Shown in pieces: positions 29,778 to 58,747 of a stretch of 64,000 nt of DNA. Position numbers and translations under genes: made by a program. The stretch is from Methanoplanus endosymbiosus (lineage in GTDB: Archaea > Halobacteriota > Methanomicrobia > Methanomicrobiales > Methanomicrobiaceae): positions 2,170,001 to 2,234,000 of the forward strand of contig NZ_CP096115.1 of assembly GCF_024662215.1 (NCBI RefSeq). Reading direction: 5' to 3'. The notes below the pieces were generated by a model. That model ran no database searches and was not told where the DNA came from. It saw only the letters and a program-made list of their open reading frames with translations. The stretch's first letter is position 1. Each line of letters begins with the position of its first letter.

Positions 29778-29892
29778 TGTATCTGTCCTGTAAATTTCAC
29801 TTAATTTACTATTTTGTAAATATAACATATTTTTAATATGATTGGAATTGATCTTTAACTCAGGCAAAGGTGTTTTTGATGGGGTTTTGATT

Positions 29893-30417
29893 ATGAAAAA
29901 AATAGCTATAGCTGCGCTTGGGGAAGGAACGATTGCTGATGAGGTTTCACCTGTCTTTGCAAGGTCACCGGTTTTCTGTATTGCTACTGTAATGTCCGGA
30001 GATCTGGTCAGTCTTGAGTCGGTAAAAAATTCTGCCGGAGATATTCCCTGTAGTGCAGGTGCTATCTCGGCTAAGGCTCTGGCAGATCTCGGTATTGACT
30101 CTGTGATTGCCGGAGATTTTGGCCCGCAGTCCTGTGGTGTCTTCAGGGAGAGCGGGGTTGCTGCTTATGCTGCCAGTGGCTGCAGGATCTCTGAGGCCCT
30201 TGAGAGATACCTTGCCGGAGATCTCTCGTTATATGATTATTCATATATTGCGGATGGCGATTTTTCCGGCAGAAGTGATGTTTCAGGCTTTTACTTTGGG
30301 CGCAGGGGTGCGAAACATGCCCAAAGGTCTCATGTCTGTGGCAGGTGCGGCTATATTTCTGGAGATATTAAGGAGAGAGGGGATAAATGCCCCAAATGTG
30401 GTCTGATGTCGCTTTGA
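29893..30417 (+). CDS. NifX/NifB-like cofactor-binding protein with zinc ribbon
   Basis: A 174-residue protein starting MKKIAIAALGEGTIADEVSP. Residues 1-110 match the NifX/NifY/NifB C-terminal fold that binds iron-molybdenum cofactor precursors (VFARSPVFCIATV, ADLGIDSVIAGDFGPQSCGVF). The last 30 residues hold a zinc ribbon (CGRCGYISGD, then KCPKCG). The start at 29893 is preferred over 29842 because the N-terminus of the domain begins there. It faces the nitrogenase-like operon (stop to stop), so they are neighbours but not one transcript. Confidence 0.8.
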   Translation: MKKIAIAALGEGTIADEVSPVFARSPVFCIATVMSGDLVSLESVKNSAGDIPCSAGAISAKALADLGIDSVIAGDFGPQSCGVFRESGVAAYAASGCRISEALERYLAGDLSLYDYSYIADGDFSGRSDVSGFYFGRRGAKHAQRSHVCGRCGYISGDIKERGDKCPKCGLMSL

Positions 30418-30432
30418 TTTTTTCCTTTATCT

Positions 30433-31632
30433 TCAGTTTTTTCTGCTCAGAATATTGAGGATATTTTCAATATAACAGAGTTCTCCTTCAATTCCGGTTA
30501 TTGGTGCGTTGTGGAGTGATATCTTCTCCCTTGACGGGAAGGTTATCCCGAAGAATTTAGCTTTGGGGTATTTTACAGATTCAAATGACGATCCAATGAT
30601 GAGATCAGGTTTTTCGTGGTTAAGAATCTCTGTTATGGTCTTCAGGTCATTGACGTAATCTTTTCTGTATCTATTGTGCTGATCTTCAGATTTTTTGTTG
30701 TATTCCGGAATTTTATCCGGCCTGTGGTCTTCAGGTGACAGATTGTTTCTGAGTCCTGTGTACAGTATATTGGCATCCAGATAATTCTGAAATATTTCTG
30801 CTGTATATCCGGCATACCCTTCCGTTGCAAATATTGCAGTTGCCGGCGGGTCGTGTTTTCTTAAGAACCGGTCACAGGCTTTGATGATATTCTCTTCTGC
30901 GCTCTCAGCCTCTTCCAGTACTTTATCCGGTCTGCACTGCGGGATCAGCTCTCCGAGTGCTTCAAATGCCCTGATGGTATTCTTTATTCCAAGCACAGAG
31001 TGGCTGTGTCCGGCACCCGATACTGCGTAATCCGGGTTTGCTGTAATGCTGAAGTCAGAAGGGTTTTTTACTGAGTCGTAACTGTCAGATGAGAGGATTG
31101 CCTCAACAGGCACTTCTGCAAGTGAGAGCAGCCTTCTGCATTCGTTTAAGTTTCCGGCATGGAAGGGATCAATGGAGCAGATCCCGTCTATGTTCACCCC
31201 TTCTCTGCCGGCATCCGGTGTTATTCCGATGGCTTCTGCTGCTTTTTTGTATCCGTAATCAAAATCGCCACAGTATCCGGGCAGGTCAACGAAGAGGGTG
31301 TCATAGTCGCTGAGAAAGCCGGTTATGTCGTCACCTGTGAGTGACGGCACGCATGTATTGATGACCGCGAATTTATCGTATATGCCGGAGAGGCCATCTA
31401 TTATCTCTTTTATGCGCTCTTCTGTGCCGAATATAATTTCATCCTGTACCAGAAATGTGCTGCTTAAGGGATCAGGTATAGCGAGTTCGGCAAAGTAATA
31501 GCATCCGCTTGAACCGTTTATGACTACTCCGAGATCTTTAATTCCGGCAAGGAAGGATGCCGCACCGACCATGGCACACGGCCAGAGGGGGTTGAAACAT
31601 GCGTTATGGCCGGTATTATCATTATTCTGCAT
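30433..31632 (-). CDS. Nitrogenase component-1-like protein, subunit 2 (NifK-like)
   Basis: A 399-residue protein of the oxidoreductase/nitrogenase component 1 family. Cysteines C19 (NPLWPCAMVG), C44 (NGSSGCYYF) and C94 (INTCVPSLTGDD) sit where the P-cluster ligands of NifD/NifK lie, so it can probably hold part of an iron-sulphur cluster. Start ATG 31632 has GGAGGAGG about eight bases upstream and overlaps the preceding gene by 11 bases. It is third in the leftward operon and should form a heterodimer with the protein at 31622-32707. The substrate is unknown. Confidence 0.85.
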   Translation of the reverse strand: MQNNDNTGHNACFNPLWPCAMVGAASFLAGIKDLGVVINGSSGCYYFAELAIPDPLSSTFLVQDEIIFGTEERIKEIIDGLSGIYDKFAVINTCVPSLTGDDITGFLSDYDTLFVDLPGYCGDFDYGYKKAAEAIGITPDAGREGVNIDGICSIDPFHAGNLNECRRLLSLAEVPVEAILSSDSYDSVKNPSDFSITANPDYAVSGAGHSHSVLGIKNTIRAFEALGELIPQCRPDKVLEEAESAEENIIKACDRFLRKHDPPATAIFATEGYAGYTAEIFQNYLDANILYTGLRNNLSPEDHRPDKIPEYNKKSEDQHNRYRKDYVNDLKTITEILNHEKPDLIIGSSFESVKYPKAKFFGITFPSREKISLHNAPITGIEGELCYIENILNILSRKN

Positions 31633-32707
31633 GTCTGAGAAACCTCCTCCACTGGTGAAGCATTCTTTTTATGCCTGTACTCCCAACCGGCGCTGAGAAT
31701 GGTATGGGAATTTCAGTGCCGTCATCATCCACCTTTATTCCGAAATATTCTGACATCTCATTGAGGATGTCATAATCTGCATTCTGAAAGCCGAATGAGT
31801 CAAAATTAATTGTTCTGCCCTTTATGTCACTGAACTCTTCAATGATGGACTGCTGGTATTTTCTTTCTTCTGCAAGAGCATATCCGGGATTGAGATCTAA
31901 CTTTTCCGCGACTTTTTTTATGAATTCTATAGAGCCTGTAAATCCGGCGGGGAACTCTTCTATATATTTCAGGCCGGTTTTTTGGGTGAAATGGTCTGTT
32001 ATGGTGTCCGGAAATTTTTCGCGGAATATATTCAGATCCGCGCTTTTCATATTCTGTATGTCGCTTACTGATGTGTGCCTTGCAAGGCGCATGTTGATTC
32101 CGACATTGAGGAGTTTTAGGAGTCTCTTTACTTCGGCATAGTTTTCGTCTATGTCAGATTCGAGGTTTTTCTCTCCGATTATGTTCACAGACGGAATTTT
32201 GGTTTTGCTTTGTTTTTTTGTTTTTTTGAGAATGGCGTTTTCATCTTCGGCAATCAGGGCGGAGACTGCGAGAAGTGCCTCTTCAAATCCGCTGGTAAAT
32301 GATCCGCCGAGGAATCCTGCGGTGTTTACCGGAATTACGGGTATGTCCGTATATTCCCGGCAGACTTCTTCTATGCTGTCCCCTATCGTTGCGGATACGC
32401 ATGTGCCAAGGACAAATACTGCCTTTGGGTTGTATGTGAGTGCCTTTTCTATAGCTTCTGCAAGTTTTTTTTCCCCGCCGAATATTATGTCGTTTTCGTT
32501 TATTTCGCTTGAGAGTATGAAGGGTATGTCAAAATAGCCGTTGTACATCAGGGCTGAGTAAAAGAATGCTGATGACTGGTGGGTACAGCCTGACGGGCCG
32601 TGTATTATTGTTATTGCGTCATCAACAAATGCGGTTATAGATAGAGCGCCCTGTATTGTGCAACCTTCATGCCTTGATATATCTGAGTGCGAGGTCTTCA
32701 AGTTCAT
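31622..32707 (-). CDS. Nitrogenase component-1-like protein, subunit 1 (NifD-like)
   Basis: A 361-residue protein of the nitrogenase component 1 family. C16 (RHEGCTIQG), C41 (HGPSGCTHQ) and C103 ([11 protein letters not shown]) match the three cluster-ligand positions. Its only other cysteine lies shortly after C103, and the last 240 residues have none, so the cysteine ligand of the NifD FeMo-cofactor is absent. At about 360 residues it is much shorter than NifD. ATG 32707 is chosen over TTG 32716; it overlaps the NifH-like gene by 41 bases. Two different component-1 subunits argue against the CfbD homodimer. Confidence 0.85.
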
Positions 32708-33491
32708 CCATCTCAAGGGGGGTAGGTGTTTTGTCTGCCGCAGGTCTGTTATTGATTATTTTATCTGCAAGTTCTCTGTACACTTCTGCCTGTTCTGATT
32801 CCGGCGCGTATTCAAGAACTGTTCGTTTGTTTACCTCGGAGACTCTGACGGTTTTGCTTCTTGGAATGAAGGCTATCATCTCAGAGTTTATGCTCCTGGC
32901 AAATTCCTCCACCAGTTCTCTCTCGCCCTCTATGTTGGCTGAGTTGCAGATGACTCCGGCGAGTCTGCACCGGTTCTTTGACCGCTTTGACAGTCTTGCA
33001 ATAGCCTTGCAGATGTTGTTGGCGGCGTACAGTGCCATGAAGTCTCCGGAGGTAACCAGATATACCTCCTGAGCGTAGCCTTCACGCATAGGCATTGCAA
33101 AGCCGCCACAGACGACATCGCCAAGAACGTCATATACGATGATGTCACCGTAGAGTGCTTTGAGCTTTTCGAGGAGCTGGAAGGTTGCTATGATGCCGCG
33201 TCCGGCACAGCCGATTCCGGGTTCCGGGCCGCCGGCTTCTACGCAGCGGATGTTGTTGTAGCCTTTGTGGACTATGTCTTCTGTTGTCAGGTTCTTCTCG
33301 CCGTTTTCCCGAATGAGATCAAGGACTGTTGGTATCCATTCCCCGCGCATGAGCATCCGGGTGCTGTCATGTTTTGGGTCGCAGCCTATCTGGAGGATAT
33401 CGAGTTTTTTTTCAGATAAAGCGGCGGAGAGGTTTGCTGAGGTTGTTGATTTTCCTATTCCGCCTTTGCCGTACAGGGCGATCTGTTTCAT
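32667..33491 (-). CDS. NifH-like reductase
   Basis: A 274-residue homodimeric ATPase that passes electrons from a [4Fe-4S] cluster to a component-1 partner. GKGGIGKS (residues 9-16) is the P-loop, GCDPKHDST the switch region, and C95 ([12 protein letters not shown]) and C128 ([11 protein letters not shown]) the cluster ligands, with R98 nearby. It is the first gene of the nitrogenase-like operon and overlaps the next, so it is the dedicated reductase of that system. Comparable proteins serve CfbD, MarDK and Nif enzymes. Confidence 0.92.
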
Positions 33492-36922: not shown

Positions 36923-37192
36923 TATACTAAATTACCCAAATAGCTGTATATTACGCCCAACTTTGAACAGTACGACCGCACATTTTGTACACCCTGACCG
37001 TCGATTTTGAACAGTTAAAATACTGATCCTGAATACCTCTCTTCTTTAGATATTTACCCCCACTTTGCCATCGCTTCAGACGTCTCTATCGAGCCGTCCT
37101 TCAGCGAACAAAAAGGATGTATGATACATTGAATTTAGCCTGTGCAAAATAGTCCCTTGGTGTCAATTAGATGCCAAAAAGGAGCGTTTTGT

Positions 37193-38734
37193 ATGAAAAA
37201 CTACAAAGAGATTCTAAGACTGGAAAGTCTTGGATTAAAGAAAACGGAGATTGCAAAATCCTGCAACTGCTCACGAACAACGGTGGTAAATACACTGAAA
37301 AGAGCTAAGGAATACAATCTCGACTGGAACAAAGTCAAAGACCTAAGCAATGAGTCAATAGCAAAAAAGATCATGCCTTCCCATGCACCAAGTGTTTCCT
37401 ATCAGATGCCGGACTATGAATATATTCACCGGGAGATGGCAAAGAGTGGTGTCACTTTGGGATTGCTCTGGGTTGAATACTGCGAACAGTGCCGCGAATC
37501 CGGTCTTATACCCTATAAACAGACTCAATTCAATAAATATTATCGTGACTTTATTCATAAAACCAAAGCTACCATGCATTTGGAGCATAAACCAGGCGAG
37601 ATCATGGAAGTTGACTGGGCCGGACAAAAGGTAACAATATTTGATACAGATACAGGAAACTCAGTAAAAGTTTCTATTTTTGTTTCTGTTCTTCCATACA
37701 GTGGTTATGCCTACGTTGAAGGATTCCTCTCTCAGAATCAGGAGAACTGGATTACAGCTCATGTTAATTCTTACAGATATTTTGGTGGTGTAACAAGGAT
37801 CCTTGTTCCTGACAACCTGAAAACCGGTGTAATCAAAAATACCGCAGATGAAACAATCATCAACAAAATGTACCAGGAACTTGCAGAGCACTATGGAACT
37901 GCAATTCTCCCTGCAAGGCCATACTCTCCAAAAGACAAGGCTACAGTTGAAAAATCAGTAAACACCGTATCAACATGGATACTTGCTGCACTTAGAAACC
38001 AGGAGTTTCTCTCACTGCGTGAATTCAATGAGGCAATCCATGAAAAATTAGTTGACTTCAACAAAAATGAATTCCAGAAAAAAGAAGGGTGCAGGGAATC
38101 CTGGTTTGAGGAAGAAAAGAATTACCTCATACCACTGCCGGAAAAACCCTATGAACCTGCCATATGGAAAACTGCCACAGTGCAGTACAATTATCATGTA
38201 ACTGTCGAAAACAAGAATTACTCATGTCCATATGAATACATTAGGCATAAGGTTGATATTCGACTAACAGGGAGAATAGTAGAGATTTTTTACAGGGGCG
38301 AACGTATTGCTTCACATCCAAGGCTTAAGGGCCATTCTTCCCAGTATAGTACCCTTAAGGAACACATGCCGCCAAACCATCAGAAATACTCTTCCTGGAA
38401 TGGAGAACGTTTCCAGAAGTGGGCCAGAAGTTATGGAATAAACACTCATGCTGTAGTCAATTATTTTCTTACACGGGATAAAGTTGAACAGCAGGGCTAC
38501 AAATCCTGTATGGCACTTTTGAAACTTTCCGACAAATATCCACAACAACACATTGAAAAAGCGTGTGAACGTGCATTATCATATACTCCAAGACCGAGTC
38601 TGAAGAGTATCCAGACAATCTTAAGATCCAAGCAGGAGATTTTGCTTACTGAAAATGAATCCAAAGAAAAGGATACTTCCTCACAATATGCATTCACCCG
38701 TGGTTCTGATTATTACAGCGGAGATGATGATTGA
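37193..38734 (+). CDS. istA: IS21 transposase IstA
   Basis: A 513-residue DDE transposase. The N-terminus has a helix-turn-helix (LGLKKTEIAKSCNCSRTTVV). The catalytic core begins EVDWAGQ; D in LVPDNLKTGV and E in SPKDKATVEKSVN complete the triad. ATG 37193 is chosen over 37142 because AAGGAG lies about eight bases upstream. The stop overlaps the next start (TGATG). Confidence 0.9.
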   Translation: MKNYKEILRLESLGLKKTEIAKSCNCSRTTVVNTLKRAKEYNLDWNKVKDLSNESIAKKIMPSHAPSVSYQMPDYEYIHREMAKSGVTLGLLWVEYCEQCRESGLIPYKQTQFNKYYRDFIHKTKATMHLEHKPGEIMEVDWAGQKVTIFDTDTGNSVKVSIFVSVLPYSGYAYVEGFLSQNQENWITAHVNSYRYFGGVTRILVPDNLKTGVIKNTADETIINKMYQELAEHYGTAILPARPYSPKDKATVEKSVNTVSTWILAALRNQEFLSLREFNEAIHEKLVDFNKNEFQKKEGCRESWFEEEKNYLIPLPEKPYEPAIWKTATVQYNYHVTVENKNYSCPYEYIRHKVDIRLTGRIVEIFYRGERIASHPRLKGHSSQYSTLKEHMPPNHQKYSSWNGERFQKWARSYGINTHAVVNYFLTRDKVEQQGYKSCMALLKLSDKYPQQHIEKACERALSYTPRPSLKSIQTILRSKQEILLTENESKEKDTSSQYAFTRGSDYYSGDDD

Positions 38735-39501
38735 TGCTGGATGAAAATACACTCGGCAAGCTTTATGAGATGAGGCTGAACAGCATGGCACGGGATTTCC
38801 GTGAACAGCTGAAAGATAATTCATTTTCAGATATGCCATTTGAAGAAAGATTTGGGCTTTTGGTTGATTCAGAATGGCAATCCCGCAAAAACAGGAAACT
38901 GGAACTGCTTATCAGGAAAGCAGAGTATGTCTACCCACAGGCCTGTATTGAAGATATAAACTATGAACCAAGCCGTCATCTCGATAAAGGACAGATTCTA
39001 AGACTGTCGTTTTGTAATTACATTCCTGAATGCAATAATGTTATCATCCTTGGTGCTACAGGCACTGGTAAGAGTTATATTAGTTGTGCTTTAGGTGTGT
39101 CTGCGAATCGCAAATATTATTCCACAAAATACATCAGACTCCCCGATCTATTCGCTGAAATGGCAGTCTCACGGGGTGAAGGAAAATACAGAGATCTGAT
39201 TAAAAAATATAAAAAAATAAACTTGCTAATTTTGGATGAATGGCTTTTAATGCCACTTTCACATACTGAAGCAAGGGATCTCTTAGAGATTATTGAAGCA
39301 CGTTGTAAAAAGGGGTCTACGATATTCTGTTCCCAATTTGAAGTAAAAGGTTGGTATCAAAAAATAGGCAATGAAACTCTTGCTGATTCAATCTGTGATA
39401 GAATATCTCATAATGCCTATACCATTGTACTAAAAGGAGACTCTATGAGAAAATTAAATGGACTGAGAAAGGAAGAATTCGGGTTAGCTGATAAAGAATA
39501 A
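38734..39501 (+). CDS. istB: IS21 ATP-binding helper IstB
   Basis: A 255-residue AAA+ ATPase that loads the transposase on target DNA. GATGTGKSYISCALG is Walker A and LLILDEWLLMPL Walker B. The ATG at 38734 shares a base with the istA stop; a TTG three bases earlier is less likely. Length is normal for the family. Confidence 0.9.
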   Translation: MLDENTLGKLYEMRLNSMARDFREQLKDNSFSDMPFEERFGLLVDSEWQSRKNRKLELLIRKAEYVYPQACIEDINYEPSRHLDKGQILRLSFCNYIPECNNVIILGATGTGKSYISCALGVSANRKYYSTKYIRLPDLFAEMAVSRGEGKYRDLIKKYKKINLLILDEWLLMPLSHTEARDLLEIIEARCKKGSTIFCSQFEVKGWYQKIGNETLADSICDRISHNAYTIVLKGDSMRKLNGLRKEEFGLADKE

Positions 39502-46633: not shown

Positions 46634-47123
46634 CCTAAGTTTGACAGTTCGTATAATTCCCCCCATTTGTGGCAAAAAAGAATTTGACAGTTACATAGTT
46701 TTGCAGAATAATCTCTCAAAATCTCCTTAATTTGAGCTTAGATTGAATGTGACATGAACATTCTAAAAATAAAACGTAACTATTCACCCCCCTAATTTTG
46801 TCCCCCAATATAATATTGAATGATCTAAATATTATTGCACACATAATGTGTGGGAATGCCTCATGATTACCTTAAGGATAAAATATTTCGGTTCGTTGTA
46901 ACTGATCCTGAAGGTGCTACAGACTTAATCAAAATTTACGAATCCACATTAAGTAATTATGAAACTCACATTAATATTCAAGAGCAAAGAATAATAGAAC
47001 TTGAAGCTCGGTTAAATCAAAATAGCAGCAATAGCAGTTTCCCACCATCTCGTGATATTTATCCTCCAAACAAAAATAAAACAGATGATGAGAATAAAAC
47101 CAATAATAAGAACAATAAAAGCG

Positions 47124-47211
47124 ATAAAGGCAATAAAGGAAATAAAGGCAATAAAGGAAATAAAGGCAATAAAGGAAATAAAGGAAATAAAGGAAATAAA
47201 GGCAATAAAAA
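47124..47211 (+). repeat. Tandem 9-bp repeats coding (GNK)n
   Basis: About nine copies of a 9-base unit (GGNAATAAA type) encode a GNK tripeptide run in the TnpC linker, with GGC/GGA alternation. The pure repeat suggests slippage expansion; such a linker should be flexible and basic. Confidence 0.85.
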
Positions 47212-48237
47212 CCGAAATACCAGTTTAAGAAATAAGTCCGGAAAAAAAGTTGGTGGTCAGCAGGGTCATAAAGGAACAACACTCGAATTAAATAATAATC
47301 CTCATGAAACCAGTAATATTGAGGTTAACACATGTCCTTGTGGGAATGATCTTAGCGATGTGGAATCTGAAAAATATATTCGTCGGCAAGTTTTTGATAC
47401 TCCACCTGTGGATCCCCGCATAACCGAATTTAGGGCAGAAATCAAGTATTGTCCAAAATGCGGGCGTAGAATAGTGGGTCCTTTCCCGGAAAATGTTAAT
47501 CAAACTGTCCAGTATGGAGATAATTTAAAAGCGAATGCGCTATACATTAAAAATCAGATATTCACATCATATGAGAAAGAAAAGACATATTTCATAGATC
47601 AATACTGTATCAGCATAAGCCCAGCCACACTAATTGCATTTGAAAAAAACGCTCATAAAACCCTTAATAAGTTTGAATATGATTTAAGAGAGGAATTGAT
47701 TAAATCCTCTGTACTAAATGCTGATGAAACTGGTCTTAGAGTTATAGGAGAAAGATGGTGGCTTCATTCAATTGGAAATGAACACCTGACGTTGTATGCA
47801 GTACATCCTAAAAGAGGATCTGTTGCAACTGATGAAATGGGAGTACTTCCACAGTATGATGGTGTATTAGTACATGATTTTTGGGTTGGTTATTCAAAAT
47901 ATAATTGTACACATTCTTATTGCAATGCCCATATAATGAGAGAATTAAACGGAGTTTGGGAAGGATACAAACAAAATTGGGCAAAGGATATGATTGACCT
48001 TTATAAGCAAATTTACCATTATCTTTTCATTGAGGATAGAAAGGATCCTTTAGAGCTTGAAAAATTCCGAATTAAATATATGAAAATAATTGAATCTGGA
48101 TTCAAAGAAAATCCACCTCCTGCTGAAAAAAAAGCCGGGCAAAGAGGGCGAGTAAAAAATTCAAAACCTTTCAACTTACTTGTTAGGCTCAGAGATTATG
48201 AAGAAGATATACTGCGGTTCATGTACAATTCCTTAGT

Positions 48238-49531
48238 GGCTGTAATTTTATAAGTCGTCCACGACATAGTAACATTCATCCTTTGGAGCAATAGTATAAT
48301 TCCATTCACCATGAAATTGATTTGGGAGAAGGAACAATTCGTTCATCTCTTCTTTTGATACTTTCCTTCCAAGAGGATATGAATTGTTATCAACAGAACA
48401 TTGAACCGTCAATCCCTTAGATGTTCTTGTATTGGCGATTAAATTTACTATTGTCTCCATATTAATCAATGGTCTTCCTCTCCAATTTTTAGAGATTGCA
48501 GAAAATAAGCGATGCTCAATTTTATTCCACTTGCTTGTTCCTGGCGGAAAGTGGCAGACTGACACCATAAGGTTAAATTCGTCACAAAATTTTTGCAATT
48601 CAACTTTCCATGCTTTTCTCCTATAACCATTACTACCTCCAGAATCTGCTGTTATAAGAAGAGATTCTGCATTGGGGTATATTTCCTGACCCATAGTTAT
48701 CCACCATCTCCTGATGCTTTCAACTGCAAATTCTGATGTTTCATGATCTACACCTACATTGACCCAACCGGAGTTATTGCTGATATCATAAATTCCATAT
48801 GGTATTGCTTTCCCAAGTTCTTTATCAATAAAATCATGATCCTTGACTTTGACAGGCTTACCCTTAGGACGCCATTCCTGCCCTTTATTTGTGTAATTCC
48901 CAATATTTTCCTTCTTTTTGCAATCAACAGAAATTACTGGTTGGTTATGGGTCTGATACTTTTTGACAAATTCATTAATGAATTCAAATTGTTCGTTTCT
49001 GTCCTCATGAGATTTGCCTTCTTCAGTTTTCCTTGGTGCCTGAAGGCTGTAACCCGAATAATTCAATAGCTTTGAAACACAAGTATGGCTTACATTATGC
49101 CCTTTATTTATTAATTCCTCAGCTAAATTCCTTGTACTTAGACATGTCCACCTTAGAGGTGATTCGGGATCTCCTCTCGAAGTTGGCTCAATAAGAAAGT
49201 CTAGATCATTAATTAATTCAGGATCAATCTCTGTTATTTTTTTCCTTCCAGCTCCTTCAGATCTAACTTTGTCATATGGATAAATCTCTCCAGAATCTAA
49301 TTGTTTTCTTCCAATATTTATTGTAGATCTTGACATCCCTGTTATTTTAGAAACATTTGTAACTCCACCACGACCATATGAATTAGCCATAGTTGAAGCA
49401 AAGATCCTTATTTGCCTCTCATTTAGATGAGGTGTTAGGCCCTCGTAAATATTTGCAATGAAAGCATCCAGATCCATATATTATAATGATGCACATAATA
49501 AATTAAATGATCGGTTTATTAATTTACGATG
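48238..49531 (-). mobile_element. ISAzo13-like element (1294 bp)
   Basis: The element is flanked by CCTTAGT at 48231-48237 and 49532-49538, and removing it with one copy restores the TnpC frame. Its ends share a partial inverted pattern (GTAATTTTATAA and GTAAATTAATAA at the same distance). One transposase gene fills nearly all of it. Confidence 0.8.
48248..49477 (-). CDS. ISAzo13-like transposase
   Basis: A 409-residue transposase. The N-terminus carries helix-turn-helix segments (LNERQIRIFASTMANSYGRG, ITGMSRSTINIGR). The catalytic Asp lies in ISVDCKKKENIGNYTNKG, the second in LITADSGGSNGYR, and Glu in SKWNKIEHRLFSAISKNW, a typical ISAzo13 order. The start ATG 49477 lies in TATA-rich DNA with no Shine-Dalgarno. 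The gene looks intact and may be active. Confidence 0.85.
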   Translation of the reverse strand: MDLDAFIANIYEGLTPHLNERQIRIFASTMANSYGRGGVTNVSKITGMSRSTINIGRKQLDSGEIYPYDKVRSEGAGRKKITEIDPELINDLDFLIEPTSRGDPESPLRWTCLSTRNLAEELINKGHNVSHTCVSKLLNYSGYSLQAPRKTEEGKSHEDRNEQFEFINEFVKKYQTHNQPVISVDCKKKENIGNYTNKGQEWRPKGKPVKVKDHDFIDKELGKAIPYGIYDISNNSGWVNVGVDHETSEFAVESIRRWWITMGQEIYPNAESLLITADSGGSNGYRRKAWKVELQKFCDEFNLMVSVCHFPPGTSKWNKIEHRLFSAISKNWRGRPLINMETIVNLIANTRTSKGLTVQCSVDNNSYPLGRKVSKEEMNELFLLPNQFHGEWNYTIAPKDECYYVVDDL

Positions 49532-55132: not shown

Positions 55133-56548
55133 ATGTGCTTGTGTACAAATGGAAGGCTGCGCAATAAAATTAGTTTGACAAAAAGGATTCGTACTTTTCG
55201 ATCAAACTTGGGACAGTTACCTAAATCAGAGGTTTTTATTGACTTTTTTAAAACAAAGACTAATAATCTATTTCCAATTGGTATAGACTGTATTAAAGGT
55301 CTTTTTACAATTGAAAGTAGATCTAACCTTACAAAGATCTCTGATTGGACAAGCGAAAGAGATAATCAGGCCTTTTCTCATTTTCTCTCAAATTCGCCGT
55401 GGGATCATTCTAAGATAACACATTGGATTTATTCAAATGTTAACGATTTTGTTGGGAAAAACGGTGCATTAGTCATTGATGAGAAAGGTTCAAAAAAGAA
55501 AGGAAAACATTCAGTTGGAGTAAAAAGGCAATATTCTGGGAATACGGGCAAAGTTGATAACTGCCAGGTAGGAGTTTATTCATGCTATGTTAAGGCAGCA
55601 AAAAGAATAATTCTTGATTTTAAGCTTTATCTCCCTAAAGAATGGTGTGATGACTCTGAACGATGTGACAAAGCGGGGATCCCTCAGGAATACAGAATTT
55701 TCAAAACTAAAGGAGAATTATGCCTTGAATTAATAATTCGAGCAATAGAAGAAGGTGTTAAGTTTAGTTTTGTTTGTATGGATGGATTTTATGGAGGTAT
55801 TCCGCAGCTGCTAACAAAACTCGAAAAGATGGGAATAACATACATGGCCTCAGTTAAATCAGCAAATCGTGTTTATCTTGAAGAGCCAAAATATGGAATT
55901 CCACCGAGGAAAGGCAAAAGAGGGAGAATGCCAACCAGAATTAGAGTACTCAACACCTCACCAATCCACATCTCAAAAATTGCAAAATTGGCTGATGATT
56001 GGCAAAAAATTGAGATTAGAGACTCTACGAAAGGTCTTCTTGAAGAAGAATTTATTATGAGAAAGGTTTGGAGGATAGATGGCAAAGAAAACAGAGCTCT
56101 CCCAGTCCTTCTTCTTGTTCGTAGGGAATTGGATGAAAATAACAAAATAGTGCACAAATATTCATTTTGTAATGATGTTACAATCACTTCTTTGAAGAAA
56201 TTAGCAGAAATGCAGGCTTCGAGGTACTGGATTGAGCGCTCTTTCCAGGATGCTGTGGATCTTGCAAAAATGGATGATTATCAGGTTAGAGGTTGGAGGG
56301 GATGGCATCATCATATAGCACTTGTAATTCTTGCTATGTTCTATTTATGGCTTGATTTCAAAAATTTAGCGAGTAAAACAGAATTTGAACTCACAATTTA
56401 TCACATGAGACTCATAATACGATGTAAATACCCTTTGAATCCTATTACGAGTGAAAAAGTTGCCCATATTATAGTGCGAAATTGTATAAACCAAGAGAGA
56501 ACAAAATTGTCAAAATCGAAGAAAAAGTGCACAACAAATGTAAGTTGA
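55133..56548 (+). CDS. IS701-family transposase
   Basis: A 471-residue intact DDE transposase. LVIDEKGSKKKGKHSVGVKR, VCMDGFYGG and RYWIERSFQDAVDLAKMDDY carry the D, D and E. The adjacent short stretches 55000-55132 and 56549-56769 presumably hold the element ends, but I found no clear inverted repeats or target duplication. Confidence 0.85.
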   Translation: MCLCTNGRLRNKISLTKRIRTFRSNLGQLPKSEVFIDFFKTKTNNLFPIGIDCIKGLFTIESRSNLTKISDWTSERDNQAFSHFLSNSPWDHSKITHWIYSNVNDFVGKNGALVIDEKGSKKKGKHSVGVKRQYSGNTGKVDNCQVGVYSCYVKAAKRIILDFKLYLPKEWCDDSERCDKAGIPQEYRIFKTKGELCLELIIRAIEEGVKFSFVCMDGFYGGIPQLLTKLEKMGITYMASVKSANRVYLEEPKYGIPPRKGKRGRMPTRIRVLNTSPIHISKIAKLADDWQKIEIRDSTKGLLEEEFIMRKVWRIDGKENRALPVLLLVRRELDENNKIVHKYSFCNDVTITSLKKLAEMQASRYWIERSFQDAVDLAKMDDYQVRGWRGWHHHIALVILAMFYLWLDFKNLASKTEFELTIYHMRLIIRCKYPLNPITSEKVAHIIVRNCINQERTKLSKSKKKCTTNVS

Positions 56549-56769
56549 AGCCATAGTCTAAACCACCCTATATACATTTAGTATAGCTTACAGCTTCGAT
56601 ATATTATTTTGTTTTTCCATGATATGTGCCTTTCTAATGTAATATTGTGGTGCACCAATTAATGCAATATTATTTTTAATTTAAATTAGATTCATTTTAG
56701 AACAAAAATGACTGTCAAAACCCTAAATATGAATAAATGACAACTTTATTCTGTCTAAAGTGACATTGT

Positions 56770-57101
56770 AGAGATAAATAAAATGTGGAAAATTGGAGGA
56801 AATATTCATGATTCACTTCCAAATAAACTGAAGTTTCTCTATGAAAATGGTTATGCAGAACTTGTAGGTAAGTTTTTGAGAAAAAAACATGAACGACCCT
56901 GATTTTGAAAATAAAATGAAAAATCGTGGAGATTGCGAAAGAAAACACTCACACATAAAAAGTACAGTCAAATTTGACGTTAAAGGATATTGGGAAGATA
57001 GCAGGGAATTTAATGCCATACTGAATTTTGTCTGCTTCCAATTGCTGGATCTTTCACGTCTACAGTGTGGTATTAAAAATCCTGAGTTTTGCAACTATTA
57101 C
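56770..57101 (+). pseudogene. Frameshifted transposase C-terminal remnant
   Basis: Two overlapping frames read as one protein: NIHDSLPNKLKFLYENGYAE then LVGKFLRKKHERP, and in the next frame MNDPDFENKMKNRGDCERKH, SHIKSTVKFDVKGYWEDSRE. The shift lies near 56885. The C-terminal part resembles the end of an insertion-sequence transposase. The front half is absent. Confidence 0.6.
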
Positions 57102-57589
57102 TGATTAGTTGATACACTCCGGATTAGCATCGAACATAGCGTGAGCTGTAAATTTATTTAAGGATTTTGAAGCATATTTTAATTCATCTCTGAAAATAAT
57201 GTCAAAATTCACAGAAGATTTTTATCAAAACAGAGATTGCAGAGATAATCAGTAATTTTCAAAATATCAGAATAATTCTGTCCTGATAGGATTGGGGTTA
57301 ACAGGACAGACTCCCTGTTTTCGGACAGCCTCCTAGGTAAAATTAAATCCTCAGACTCCAATTTCAGTACTTTAAAGATTCCGCAAATTTCATCACATAA
57401 GACCCCGGAGTTTTCTGCCTAAACTCAAATAGTTAAGTACTTCTCAATATTATATTGTGTCAAAACCTCTGCTGCGTGCCGTGGAATGTTTGCACAATCT
57501 GAATCAGACAAATGTTCAATATGATCTTGTTTTTTTGATGTACCAATTGCCAATCAATAGATATATATTGCCTCCAAAACATCATCCTT
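57102..57589. other. Gene-free stretch upstream of the ISH3-like gene
   Basis: AT-rich DNA with no supported gene; it probably holds the left end of the ISH3-like element, whose exact limit I cannot place. Confidence 0.35.
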
Positions 57590-58747
57590 GTGGCAATATT
57601 TGGTCAAAAAAACAGCAAAATCCAGTCAGATACAGGACTGAAGCTTGGAAAACTTGAATTGATCTGTGATATTATTGAGGATCATATCTCCTTTCCAGAT
57701 GGCAGATATTATGATTCAAAAACAATTGTAAGAGGAACAATAGCAGCGGCATGTTCTAAAAATTCGATTTCAGGACTTGTAAAAATGACAGATGGTTTGC
57801 CATCCCATACAACCTGTCTGAAATATTTACATAATATTGACATGGAGAAATTAGAATCAGATTCCTCTAAAATACTTTTATTGGCAGGGGAAGGCATAAT
57901 TATAGAAGGCAGGGCTTACAATTTTGCTATTGATAAAACCCTCAAGCCATATTATGGGGTTAAAGACGAAGAAGAAGATCCTAATATTATACGCAACAAG
58001 AAGAAAGCATCGACAACCAAGTTCTTTGCTTACATGACTTTATCGATTGTGGACCAGGATAAGCACCTCACCCTTCTTGTTATTCCCTGGAAAGATAATG
58101 ATAATAATTTAGATGGAATAAAAACATGTGTTGAGTTAATTCGGAGTTTAGGTCTGAAAATAAAATGTTTAATGTTAGACAGGGAGTTCTACACTGGTAA
58201 AATCTTTAGCTACCTAAAAGAATCAGATGTCCCACACCTCATGCCGGTGAAGCAACATGGTGAGGAACTCAAAAAGAATCTAAAAGGTAAAAAATCAAAA
58301 TCCTTTAAACACACCCTAAATTCAAAATCAAAGTTCCCATTGGAGATAGAAATAGTTGACTGTATTGTCTATCAAATGGGAAAGAAAGGCAAAAATGGTG
58401 TACTTCATCGAGCATTTGTAGTTTATAAGGTATGTAAATCTCCAAAATCGATTAGAAGATTGTATAAACACAGATTTGCCATTGAGTCCACATATGTCCT
58501 TGCTAATAAAAGTGGTGCAAGGACATCCACTAAGGATCCGGTAGTTAGGTTTTATTATTTTTTAATCTCTTTTATAATACAGAACCATTGGGTTTCAATC
58601 AAATGGAAGAGATTTGCAAAACTTCAGAGGGGACCAAAGGTAATTTATAGAGATCGATTTCCCTTGCACCATTTTATCACTATCTTAATTAAAGAGGCTT
58701 GGGAGCATTTCCATTTATTGAGCCTTAATGAAATTGCCATAAGCTGA
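57590..58747 (+). CDS. ISH3-family transposase
   Basis: A 385-residue transposase. The motifs NFAIDKTLKPYYG, CLMLDREFYTGKIF and YKHRFAIESTYVL carry the catalytic D, D and E of the archaeal ISH3 group. The N-terminus is uncertain (GTG 57590). The gene is otherwise uninterrupted. Confidence 0.8.
   Translation: MAIFGQKNSKIQSDTGLKLGKLELICDIIEDHISFPDGRYYDSKTIVRGTIAAACSKNSISGLVKMTDGLPSHTTCLKYLHNIDMEKLESDSSKILLLAGEGIIIEGRAYNFAIDKTLKPYYGVKDEEEDPNIIRNKKKASTTKFFAYMTLSIVDQDKHLTLLVIPWKDNDNNLDGIKTCVELIRSLGLKIKCLMLDREFYTGKIFSYLKESDVPHLMPVKQHGEELKKNLKGKKSKSFKHTLNSKSKFPLEIEIVDCIVYQMGKKGKNGVLHRAFVVYKVCKSPKSIRRLYKHRFAIESTYVLANKSGARTSTKDPVVRFYYFLISFIIQNHWVSIKWKRFAKLQRGPKVIYRDRFPLHHFITILIKEAWEHFHLLSLNEIAIS

Follow-up and report, generated by a model that had tools for sequence, protein, structure and literature searches.

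In the nitrogenase family, the Fe protein docks in its ATP-bound form and transfers single electrons to an Fe-S site at a subunit interface. Besides NifDK and the scaffold NifEN, the family includes the tetrapyrrole reductases DPOR and COR (BchLNB and BchXYZ; chlorophyll is not made by methanogens), and the CfbCD system of F430 synthesis, whose component 1, CfbD, is homodimeric, each subunit having two cluster cysteines. The non-nitrogen-fixing MarHDK and IsrHDK belong to group IV, the subclades of which were reportedly defined by North in 2020, and a "group VI" is said to have been defined by Meheust in 2020. Group IV HDK enzymes of known function cleave C-S bonds (PMC12552129, PMC11423573), and Mar binds an [Fe8S9C] cluster (PMC12552129), via a conserved cysteine. 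Group VI is mentioned in a work on MCR activation, with uncertain cluster content (PMC12176620). Dos Santos 2012 (PMC3464626) pointed out pairs in archaea that resemble NifDK and are uncharacterised, as well as NifHD fusions; its text names no gene of Methanoculleus or Methanoregula. No text linking the CfbC of Methanomicrobiales to a D'K' pair such as the one described here was found in the literature searched, key subscription papers lying outside it.

The pair analysed here is from Methanoplanus endosymbiosus (genome of 3.16 Mb in one contig). The window, i.e., the whole stretch of DNA analysed, covers 64,000 nucleotides of contig NZ_CP096115.1 (2,170,001 to 2,234,000). It contains three overlapping genes on the minus strand. 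H (33491-32667, 274 aa) codes for a NifH-family Fe protein (Fer4_NifH PF00142, E 2.8e-107), D' (32716-31622, 364 aa) for a NifD/E-like component-1 subunit (Oxidored_nitro PF00148, E 6.9e-55), and K' (31632-30433, 399 aa) for a NifK-like component-1 subunit (PF00148, E 2.8e-32). The initial annotation had described a nitrogenase-like HDK operon at this place, and the three ORFs are confirmed at exactly its coordinates. The overlaps are of 50 nt between H and D' and 11 nt between D' and K'; the start of D' is uncertain, its start codon being TTG with an ATG 9 bases further in. The dN/dS ratios relative to a congener (G025) are 0.05 for H, 0.12 for D', and 0.13 for K', and the three genes are therefore under purifying selection. 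Because orthologues are found throughout one archaeal order and these ratios are low, it is confirmed that the operon is far beyond chance. No RNA family was found at the operon locus, and the scan of viral contigs revealed no relatives. Convergent with K' there is a gene (29842-30417, plus strand) whose PF02579 product (NifX/FeMo-co-binding-like) has at its C-terminus a CxxC tail resembling a zinc ribbon. It was rejected as a partner of D'K', as it lies beside K' in the congener alone and not in other genera. The region between 36000 and 64000 of the window is a probable genomic island: the G+C content drops from ~0.45 to 0.30, and one finds an IS21 IstAB transposase (37142-39501), an IS66-like transposase (46850-48253), an ISAZ013-type transposase (48248-49477), and DDE-type transposases (55133-58747), alongside genes for a radical SAM/SPASM protein and for sugar epimerases.

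D'K' is confined to the order Methanomicrobiales and is nearly universal there. A profile scan of ~85,000 species genomes returns ~50 orthologues of D', all from this order, and then a sharp drop (a single-sequence scan of the species-genome contigs gave no matches). By profile, all true orthologues belong to Methanomicrobiales and score at least 386 bits, and the next matches, the NifH-NifD fusion proteins, ~190 bits. The orthologues are found in Methanomicrobium, Methanogenium, Methanoculleus, Methanofollis, Methanoregula, Methanolinea, Methanocalculus, and Methanocorpusculum. At a threshold of 1e-10, D' is matched in 189 of the 199 genomes of the order, where the weak hits correspond to other proteins of nif type. 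Gene order is well conserved in a sample of 127 D' loci, some genomes being counted twice: H is the immediate upstream neighbour of D' at 121 of them, and K' the immediate downstream neighbour at 102. K' is a few genes away from D' in 7 of the 127, mostly Methanoculleus-like. In the Methanoculleus-like loci L041, L042, and L043, K' is displaced by a few genes, mostly in opposite orientation, and is still retained. The neighbours of D'K' are ordinary housekeeping genes (TrkH, PRK, FprA-like), and no pathway hint to a substrate was found in these neighbourhoods.

Exceptions to this distribution are the Methanospirillum-like genomes (genus g35) and genome G047, which have H and lack both D' and K'. 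Their gene order is H-c9, versus H-D'-K'-c9 in many Methanoregula-type relatives; hence, the D'K' segment separating these two genes was excised, leaving H in place. The c9 gene (e.g., L044:8705-9184) codes for a conserved protein of 140-160 aa with no Pfam or NCBIfam match. Joining the H proteins of the D'K'-less genomes with their own GTDB family gives a clade that is not rejected (p-AU 0.061), and the loss of D'K' is thus compatible with the H gene tree.

H is almost certainly CfbC, since it is the sole NifH homologue of the genome, it scores as CfbC, and the cfbAEDB cluster lacks a cfbC. It obtains 421.8 bits with the NCBIfam CfbC model NF033200 (cut-off 402), and its orthologues from genomes without D'K' likewise exceed the cut-off. 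It is the single NifH homologue of the host above 45 bits (358 bits), the next matches, at ~43 bits, being at the level of MinD/Mrp-type ATPases. By our own count, 22 of 40 Methanomicrobiales genomes contain no NifH homologue other than H. A CfbD above the cut-off is present in all 32 genomes tested, with these 22 among them. The host CfbD is encoded 0.44 Mb from the operon (C1:2643178-2644224), in a cluster with the order cfbA-cfbE-cfbD-cfbB, in which each gene is above its NCBIfam cut-off. Compared with the order A-E-D-C-B of one Methanosarcinaceae genome, cfbC is exactly the gene that is missing. In the H tree, the proteins of Methanomicrobiales group together, separately from the CfbC of Methanosarcinales, although a clade joining both is not rejected (p-AU 0.057). 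H may thus be a relocated form of the old cfbC, or a protein of NifH type that took its place. In either case, the self-contained operon implied by the initial annotation has to be abandoned, since the only NifH homologue of the genome is also its only candidate for the CfbC role. The separation of HDK from CfbCD, also claimed there, stands for D'K' and fails for H. Very probably, a single Fe protein drives two component-1 enzymes: H would hydrolyse ATP and give electrons to CfbD for F430 synthesis, and also to D'K'. These two roles are separable, as H is needed for F430 and life is possible without D'K'.

The host genome has only three PF00148 genes (D', K', and one CfbD), and nifE and nifN were not found in it. 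In the component-1 tree, D' and K' each form a clade (100/100) apart from NifD, NifE, NifK, NifN, CfbD, Chl, and the Mar-like pair. The proposal that D'K' is neither a nitrogen-fixing enzyme nor CfbD therefore holds, the former also because the genome has no other gene of the NifDK/EN type and D' no cofactor cysteine. D' fails both the CfbD model TIGR03282 (60.9 bits, cut-off 268.4) and the NCBIfam Bch/Chl model (73.4 bits, cut-off 490). By sequence it is nearer to NifE and NifD than to Bch, NifE being the nearest.

Sister to D' are the D portions of the NifH-NifD fusion proteins (97/87), followed by a Pelotomaculum pair (98/94). The D part of the fusions also lacks the cofactor cysteine. Unlike in the operon, H and D are fused there, the pair is linked to an importer and is not the partner of CfbC, and in its K-like subunit Asp and Pro stand in place of two of the three cysteines, the first cluster position being occupied by Asp, as in DPOR. 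The fusion pairs beside importers occur in Methanosarcinaceae and some Methanomicrobiales; at L213:665-6367 and L215:1335-6948, the fusion gene and a NifK-like gene lie directly behind BtuC/BtuD-type ABC importer genes. This proximity is a weak hint at substrates of the corrinoid, haem, or siderophore type, and it counts in favour of the tetrapyrrole reading of D'K' discussed below. Methanogens also have Mar-like HDK sets, relatives of the methylthio-alkane reductase (L218:672-4706 and, in a Methanospirillum-like genome, L217:3736-7607). An identification of D'K' with Mlab_1039/1040 (Dos Santos 2012) was rejected, because the genome taken as M. labreanum (G054) has its HDK at ~0.15 Mb and a further, partly broken set at ~1.05 Mb. 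At the latter place (G054:C1:1049981-1052562), a second NifH-like gene is broken by a TAA stop beside another component-1 gene.

The cysteines of D' are at positions 19, 44, 106, and 119, and the last 245 residues have none; K' has Cys19, Cys44, and Cys94 at ligand positions, and a conserved Cys12. Three cysteines per protein at cluster-ligand positions had been proposed from the start, as had a D' tail of 240 residues without cysteine and without a FeMo-cofactor ligand, and both are borne out. The ligands are essentially invariant: Cys19, Cys44, and Cys106 of D' are kept in 51 of 51 aligned orthologues, Cys44 and Cys94 of K' in 47 of 47, and Cys19 of K' in 45 of 45, with two gaps. The relatives show no loss of cluster cysteines that could have spoken against the initial annotation. 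With the P-cluster cysteines present in both subunits, a P-cluster-type Fe-S site held by six cysteines between D' and K' is probable. The position of NifD Cys275 and of the NifE cluster cysteine is a cysteine in all cluster-binding lineages of the alignment, but in D' it is Arg232, invariant in 51 of 51 orthologues. Therefore, neither FeMoco nor an L-cluster would be expected in D'. All that is said here of the D'K' pocket comes from sequence alignment.

D'K' resembles NifDK and NifEN in the fold, the full set of P-cluster cysteines, and the proximity of D' to NifE, but both subunits are ~100 aa shorter. In length CfbD is close to D', and it likewise lacks FeMoco ligands, but D'K' consists of two different subunits, with at least three cluster cysteines in each. 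With DPOR and COR it shares the HDK layout, the compact size, and the lack of the cofactor cysteine, but the DPOR site has three Cys plus Asp, which is not matched by the six cysteines of D'K', accompanied by two extra conserved ones. The AlphaFold (AF2) models (pLDDT 90.2 for D' and 88.8 for K') both have BchB of DPOR as best match, D' with Z 29.0 (rmsd 3.3, 332 aligned residues; Nif ~25) and K' with Z 36.1 (rmsd 2.6, 367 aligned; NifK ~30). The models are suggestive of a build closest to BchB, although DALI-type Z scores favour compact proteins, so this ranking may partly reflect size, and the BchN/BchB fold is common to all component-1 proteins.

A reading that we regard as evenly poised is that this cfbC-D'K' operon codes for a CfbC-driven reductase with a P-cluster-type site and no M-cluster, acting most likely on a tetrapyrrole. 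D'K' would be a heterotetramer with the nitrogenase component-1 fold. ATP-bound H would dock on it and supply the Fe-S site between D' and K' with electrons one at a time; these would then move on to a substrate lying in the cavity where nitrogenase holds FeMoco. Because the cluster cysteine is replaced by an invariant arginine, this cavity, without M- or L-cluster, would probably work like protochlorophyllide reductase, with ATP-driven reduction of a double bond in a bound tetrapyrrole, a carboxylate of which may pair with Arg232. The substrate itself has about an even chance of being a tetrapyrrole. Likely candidates would be an F430 derivative (e.g., in the repair of oxidised F430), an F430 variant, or a corrinoid; F430-modifying enzymes are not known (PMC9081873). 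The housekeeping neighbours, the proximity of D' to NifE/NifD, and the six-cysteine site unlike that of DPOR all count against a tetrapyrrole. The same lack of a context that names the substrate, and the same site, would fit an enzyme that uses ATP to reduce a different small molecule, or a partner protein, with no tetrapyrrole involved. Given that the M-cluster ligand is absent and that the fold is closest to DPOR, we find this rather improbable.

Two further alternatives are unlikely, to the same extent. D'K' could help CfbD in the main F430 pathway, taking over one of three ring reductions, which would account for the common H, the order-wide conservation, and the operon with the CfbC gene. 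Yet other methanogens need nothing beyond CfbCD to complete this step (PMC7242693), and CfbD and H are kept in the genomes that lost D'K'. It could also be a reductase of sulphur compounds like Mar or Isr, in which H would drive C-S bond cleavage. The HDK operon, the non-nitrogen-fixing group, and the full P-cluster cysteines, present in Mar as well, agree with this. However, D' has no cysteine for the [Fe8S9C] cluster, HDK is not flanked by a gene for a radical-SAM partner of the kind that accompanies Isr and Mar, and the Mar-like pairs of Methanomicrobiales (so labelled from 263 and 285 bits to the R. rubrum Mar chains) form separate 100/100 clades from D'K', in a comparison whose group IV members were of the Mar type. 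The conclusion that D'K' is not a Mar-type enzyme is thus supported at the level of sequence. It is very improbable that D'K' is a scaffold in the manner of NifEN, maturing or carrying L-clusters, e.g., for the MCR activation complex: the sequence of D' is nearest to that of NifE and L-clusters are required for MCR activation in methanogens (PMC12176620), but the cluster cysteine of NifE is the invariant arginine, and MCR activation is general in methanogens, whereas D'K' is found in one order and is missing in its Methanospirillum-like genomes.

If the tetrapyrrole reading is correct, D'K' might represent a new enzyme class, a possibility that we hold with somewhat less confidence than the reading itself: a heterotetramer with a P-cluster-type site and no M-site cluster, driven by the F430 Fe protein and reducing a tetrapyrrole order-wide, in a reaction not described so far. 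The question lends itself to direct testing, since there are relatives that naturally lost D'K' and kept H, and genetic tools are available in Methanoculleus thermophilus (PMC9081873). The order Methanomicrobiales contributes greatly to methane production, and nearly every member has this reductase, which consumes ATP and is uncharacterised. Should F430 synthesis and D'K' both be powered by a single Fe protein, the one is coupled to the other. A P-cluster-type site without an M-cluster would be an informative intermediate in the evolution of the nitrogenase metalloclusters.
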